From Telopea speciosissima (Eukaryota; Streptophyta; Magnoliopsida; Proteales; Proteaceae), in contig NC_057919.1 of assembly GCF_018873765.1 (NCBI RefSeq), positions 22,236,698 to 22,300,697 of the forward strand: a stretch of 64,000 bases of DNA, written 5' to 3'. The notes below the pieces were generated by a model. The model saw nothing but the letters and a program-made list of their open reading frames with translations. It had not been told where the DNA came from and did no database searches. The stretch's first letter is position 1; every line of letters starts with the position of its first letter. Below are positions 384-32,557 of this stretch, one piece after another. A program made the position numbers and the translations under genes.

Positions 384-32557
<32,174 letters not shown>

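Follow-up and report, generated by a model that had tools for sequence, protein, structure and literature searches.

How is the reading frame carried across a gap of about 13.5 kb between two plant HDC1 exons whose phases do not agree? The question is raised by a 64 kb stretch of Telopea speciosissima DNA (the window; position numbers are window coordinates throughout), on the minus strand of which a gene of probable HDC1/Rxt3 type is read. A first-pass annotation of the window had predicted that the gap holds an 8-nt microexon at 23482..23489. From the sequence of the seam, from a second copy of the gene on contig C423 of the same genome and from a scan for competing exons, we conclude that this octamer is most probably a real coding microexon of the gene, constitutive or nearly so (probability about 0.92). 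The gene and the signals at the seam are laid out as follows, in the order of transcription:

31217..32557, minus strand: exon E1, from ATG (MSGAPKR...; start codon by our own reading) to ...RSRDSEG, the long charged N-terminal part
23490..23531, minus strand: 3' splice-site region with a branch-point-like TACTAAT, a U-rich tract and GCAG (sequence, C423 identity)
23482..23489, minus strand: proposed 8-nt coding microexon ATCTCAAG (sequence, frame, C423 counterpart, cassette rank)
23476..23481, minus strand: 5' splice site GTTAGG, identical in C423
17549..17724, minus strand: exon E3, KPEVSTVVYTAGECMQELIKLWKEF...ATNRQ, 160/176 bases identical in C423
15583..15643, minus strand: exon E4, within the Rxt3 match (exon model, C423 comparison)
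15376..15474, minus strand: exon E5 (exon model, C423 comparison)
14395..14489, minus strand: exon E6 (exon model, C423 comparison)
14121..14234, minus strand: exon E7 (exon model, C423 comparison)
7744..7811, minus strand: exon E8, NALRQQRFVREVTIQYNLCNEPW (exon model)
384..494, ends approximate, minus strand: exon E9, IKYSISIVADKGLKKPLYTSARLKK... (exon model, genome protein search)

The octamer at the exon seam

The exon ends flanking the gap were reproduced from the sequence and are out of step, as the first-pass annotation had stated. E1 ends at 31217 in phase 2 (...GAAGG|GTACGT), E3 is entered at 17724 in phase 1 (GCAG|GTAAACC), and a direct join of the two leads to the stop that had been claimed (...SEG-stop, GGG-TAA). 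At 23482-23489 of the minus strand, TTTTGCAG|ATCTCAAG|GTTAGG is read, letter for letter as annotated; the bases immediately before the octamer are TTCTGATTTTGCAG and those after it are GTTAGG. Entered in phase 2 and left in phase 1, the octamer encodes G-S-Q-G together with its flanking bases. The seam becomes RDSE-GSQG-KPEV (…RDSE-GSQG-KPEVSTVV…), the phase gap is closed as predicted and the frame stays open through E8. Counted after a frame break in E1, which is discussed below, a single open reading frame (ORF) from E1 to E8 is obtained in the window only with the octamer. The introns beside it measure 7,727 nt and 5,757 nt, which agrees with the 7.7 and 5.8 kb given earlier. As far as the letters tell, the octamer has the properties by which plant microexons are recognised: it would be an internal exon of 1-15 nt between AG and GT, and the frame of its gene depends on it.

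EGSQGK is a putative motif of the HDC1 family. Across both strands of the window, AG-NTCNCARG-GT is found a single time, while 0.12 occurrences are expected from shuffled sequences; by our own scaling of this value, the chance expectation for the intron strand is about 0.013.

A diverged gene copy on contig C423

The genome's own assembly (822,943,500 bases) was searched with a protein query. The 17 matches comprised the window's own exons, the second copy on C423, the E1 of which matches at 81% identity, and E8/E9 pieces on C847 and C1144. The copies on C423 and in the window share 351/431 identical residues. Over 431 codons after the E1 frame break, the synonymous divergence (Ks) is 0.286 and the ratio of non-synonymous to synonymous divergence (Ka/Ks) is 0.30; thus, the window copy has been under constraint.

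The annotation had proposed to look for the same octamer and phases in other HDC1 genes, and both were found in this diverged copy. E1, microexon and E3 follow each other on C423 in the same order and phases as in the window. The C423 octamer is ATCGCAAG at 17300-17293 of that contig; its only difference from the window octamer, TCT to TCG, is silent. Size, phase and position are therefore the same in the one other homologous gene compared. The C423 introns are 12,681 and 2,603 nt long (whole E1-E3 intron, 15,292 nt). Splicing with the octamer gives NEGSQGKPEVSS, its omission gives a stop, and E1 to E3 form one ORF only when it is included. The octamer pattern was found once in C423:5001-32714, both strands, and once in the 9.9 kb C423 stretch holding the place, where 0.04 occurrences are expected.

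The conservation is not limited to the octamer. From 23531 to 23476, i.e. from upstream of TACTAAT through the donor, 54/56 bases are identical in C423 (own count); GTTAGG itself is identical and the three bases following it differ. In a collinear alignment of the two introns, made of 14 pieces with 2,472 ungapped columns and 80% identity among these, this island is the best-conserved place, with 39/40, 59/65 and 71/80 identical columns, ranking first of 2149, 1799 and 1589 windows, respectively. Directly before the microexon, 29/30 bases are identical, compared to 21/34, 22/30, 27/30, 26/33 and 26/32 before E3 to E7. The 30 bases after it reach 23/30, which is not above the values for E3-E5 (26/30, 25/30 and 26/31). 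A search of the genome with the island returned two matches, the window and C423.

Among the 17 genome matches there was no HDC1 retrocopy showing the spliced seam, and there was no HDC1 relative among the viral contigs searched. The 51 loci obtained by the genome-contig search were all bacterial, and the three scanned (3/51) were uninformative for the seam. The E8/E9-like pieces of HDC1 lie on small contigs (G000:C1144:204-317 and C847) and may represent a haplotig and the remainder of the C423 copy.

Cassette scan independent of the family motif

Single cassettes of 2-300 nt, bounded by AG and GT, of length 3n+2 and with an open frame, were enumerated and ranked by summed splice score. Of the 685 open cassettes of the window intron (a narrower margin gives 686), the octamer came first, and its acceptor ranked third of 775 AGs and its donor ninth of 727 GTs; in C423, it was first of 943 cassettes. 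The best decoy in the window is a 14-nt cassette at 23126-23139 (minus strand), which is in frame, has good splice sites with a score of 8.3 and is unalignable to C423.

A two-copy filter was then used, in which splice sites, length class and open frame had to be kept in both copies; it sees aligned stretches only. Twenty cassettes were left, of which the octamer scored 18.4 and the next 4.6. For an alternative in-frame exon, which the annotation had named as the finding that would speak against the octamer, 19 other cassettes are left, none of which exceeded 4.6. As a control, E3, E4, E5 and E6 were hidden in turn and the filter placed the true exon first in 4/4 cases, so true exons do align between the copies.

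Alternative explanations

Several observations weigh against the octamer as an exon, or limit what can be drawn from it. The C423 and window copies share ancestry and hence amount to a single evolutionary comparison rather than to two separate findings. The silent change in the octamer is weak evidence by itself, as 7/24 possible changes are silent (own count). The splice weights were untrained. With the one-copy score, the true exon was first for 4/6 exons (the microexon, E3, E4 and E6), while E5 was fourth and E7 seventh. Decoys come close to the octamer's 9.2, with 8.3 in the same intron and up to 8.8 elsewhere; splice score alone was therefore rejected as proof of the octamer, the decoys reaching 8.8 lying in introns between known exons.

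E1 and E3 might instead be joined by another in-frame cassette or by a shifted donor or acceptor, the octamer being a chance match. The window intron has 684 further open cassettes, with the runner-up (14 nt at 23139-23126) scoring 8.3 against 9.2. However, C423 does not align at any of the 11 window decoys listed next after the octamer, and the runner-up among the 20 two-copy cassettes has 4.6 against 18.4. Within the ranges tried, 120 in-frame direct joins exist in the window and 121 in C423. C423 also offers an in-frame direct join (...NEG-YG-KPEV) through a donor lying 5 nt past the end of E1, but this donor has no counterpart among the best 8 of the 120 window joins, the window having a GT at +4 (own reading). 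Also counting against the octamer, 42 of the in-frame direct joins occur at offsets shared by the two copies. In 17 of these the donor is GT in either copy, and the best such join starts from a weak donor located 109 nt within E1. This donor scores 1.9 and -1.1, where the normal E1 donor has 3.2 and 2.6; its use would drop 36 codons that look coding (6 base differences in silent codons, 4 in others). We consider a join without the octamer very improbable as the regular product; direct joins via weak donors inside E1 or via the C423 +5 donor are possible as minor isoforms.

A different doubt concerns the window copy itself. The coding indels in E1 between the copies comprise 6, 1, 9 and 18 nt. 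The one extra base, at 32326-32342, shifts the frame after about 74 codons and puts the window ATG frame out of step with the rest, while C423 has no such break; the first-pass annotation does not mention it. As assembled, the window copy is unable to make full-length HDC1 from this ATG, which is a further point against a working microexon at this place. The copy might thus be a decaying duplicate, in which the microexon is a relic and works only in C423. We consider this unlikely: the three other E1 indels are 6, 9 and 18 nt long, Ka/Ks is 0.30 after the break, E3-E8 retain open frames as well as GT/AG sites, and a single-base assembly error would give the same picture. The extra base is possibly such an error or a young lesion. 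In either case, the break does not bear on the exon call, and decay of the window copy would leave the assignment of the octamer as an HDC1 exon untouched.

It could also be argued that the conservation marks a regulatory element within the intron, an enhancer or a recursive splice site, and no exon at all. The spot is the best-conserved place of the intron alignment, and its conserved AG and GT, only a few bases from each other, are reminiscent of ratchet sites. Such an element leaves unexplained why 3n+2 bases are needed at exactly this intron, and equally the open frame and the run of identity that ends at the donor, so that we find this explanation scarcely credible.

Identity of the gene

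The name HDC1 is drawn from the Rxt3 match and the published make-up of HDC1. Joined E3-E7 matched Rxt3 (PF08642) with E=1.3e-18 and 68.4 bits at a cut-off of 29.9, and also three fungal Rxt3 chains of the PDB (E 1.5e-10 to 2.6e-06). E3-E8 of the window have open frames and kept GT/AG sites, and the gene seems to continue past the window end after E9. In the published description, HDC1 consists of a plant-only N-terminal part, followed by an Rxt3-like C-terminal half (PMC10953426). The window gene has the Rxt3 core and the same order of parts as this family (Arabidopsis HDC1; PF08642). The microexon directly precedes E3 and hence lies near the point where the charged N-terminal exon gives way to the Rxt3-like part.

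The Rxt3 core (query residues ~63-138) matches the 51 bacterial loci (L001-L051) mentioned above. The three scanned (L001, L008 and L015; 3/51) are LCCL-domain proteins which also pass the Rxt3 cut-off, and the window Rxt3 matches LCCL weakly (E 0.011, below the LCCL cut-off); judged from these matches, Rxt3 and LCCL look like one superfamily. Within the E8-E9 intron, long low-complexity runs of poly-G/C and poly-T/A were noted at 1071-2352.

Splice signals and proposed splicing

The A of TACTAAT at 23521 is located at -32 and the previous AG lies 48 nt upstream. Within the range searched, -15 to -50, the only CTRAY is the one at -32. A short inverted repeat at 23512-23599 was considered and rejected, since its matching bases differ in C423.

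If the octamer is spliced as a microexon, it would convert the phase-2 exit of E1 to the phase-1 entry of E3 and would join the N-terminal exon to the Rxt3-like part; when skipped, the protein would end at the seam. An exon of eight bases has hardly any space for exonic enhancers and, thus, the recognition signal is presumably the intronic island, in which the spliceosome would read TACTAAT at -32, the U-rich tract, the TTTTGCAG acceptor and the GTTAGG donor. For plant microexons, intronic signals and the successive removal of the two introns, the upstream one tending to be later, have been described (PMC8831610). The two long introns of HDC1 would probably be removed one after the other as well, because their sites are only 8 nt apart, and the downstream one may more often go first (PMC8831610). 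In human, a 4-nt exon with flanking introns of >12 and 3 kb depends for its definition on the 67 bases upstream of it and on a donor of 6 bases (PMC9929638); the conserved block in HDC1 has the same outline, which suggests an exon island with stepwise splicing. Splicing in RNA, splicing order and the consequence for the protein are what we infer from these signals.

The octamer may further act as a regulated on/off seam between the plant-specific and the Rxt3-like part of HDC1, which we regard as improbable. Loss of the plant-specific part weakens binding to HDA6, HDA19 and SAP18, and the Rxt3-like part alone still binds histone H1 (PMC10953426). If the seam were regulated, skipping of the octamer or retention of the upstream intron would lead to an N-terminal fragment or to no protein, and histone deacetylation would be tuned under stress.

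Other features of the window

Two nearly identical VIT-family (PF01988) genes are arranged in inverted orientation, about 9.4 kb apart, at 41057-41740 (minus strand) and 51126-51809 (plus strand). At 59999-60985 (minus strand), a frame running from stop to stop and encoding DDT and WHIM1 domains indicates a gene of the chromatin-remodeller type. Upstream of HDC1, open frames at 35190-36450 (minus strand) contain a zinc-knuckle-like CGYCGRVGH stretch. Two frames scanned within this region gave no Pfam match; the frames are perhaps a retroelement remnant.

Comparison with known systems

Coding microexons of 1-15 nt are known from plants in 45 conserved clusters (Yu et al. 2022, PMC8831610; MEPDB, PMC12409088). 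Of these clusters, 35/45 are common to moss (PMC8831610), hence such exons are often old. The HDC1 octamer resembles them in its size, its coding role, the restoration of a frame by a length that is no multiple of 3, the U-rich signal of the flanking intron and the position kept between copies. It differs from the size-8 cluster in RECQ3, which is phase 1, by being phase 2 (PMC8831610), and its flanking introns are long, with 5.8 and 7.7 kb. The octamer may well be among the 45 published clusters already. AT5G08450, histone and Rxt3 are not mentioned in the main text of PMC8831610, the cluster table of which is a supplement, and AT5G08450, HDC1 and Rxt3 are not mentioned in the main text of MEPDB (PMC12409088). 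In the open PMC literature, no paper was found with both microexon and HDC1, and the peptide strings of the seam were absent. Broader searches there gave no paper joining microexons and HDC1 among the matches listed (by title or start of abstract), and AT5G08450 was absent among the matches listed for splicing or intron retention.

The octamer very probably extends the known set of tiny plant exons by one. For a chromatin regulator, it provides a firm gene model; programs that do not handle microexons would probably cut the gene short at the seam. How an 8-nt exon between kilobase-long introns is recognised can be asked cleanly in this natural example, with an island of 56 bases almost unchanged while the intron lengths differ widely between the copies. 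Moreover, a second gene copy in one genome can be used for testing a microexon prediction without RNA.

The single-nucleotide exon of APC11 in Arabidopsis is likewise tiny and required for the frame, with a putative branch point 44 nt upstream compared to 32 for the HDC1 octamer (PMC4674806). It comprises 1 nt in a 422-nt intronic stretch and was proven by cDNA and GFP fusions (PMC4674806), whereas the predicted HDC1 exon comprises 8 nt in 13.5 kb. The 4-nt 'exon island' of human MPC1 belongs to another gene in another kingdom and the likeness is one of working only. The branch points of MPC1 are unusually distant (-63 and -68), whereas the HDC1 candidate is at an ordinary -32; in both genes, the block spans the branch-point region to the donor (PMC9929638).
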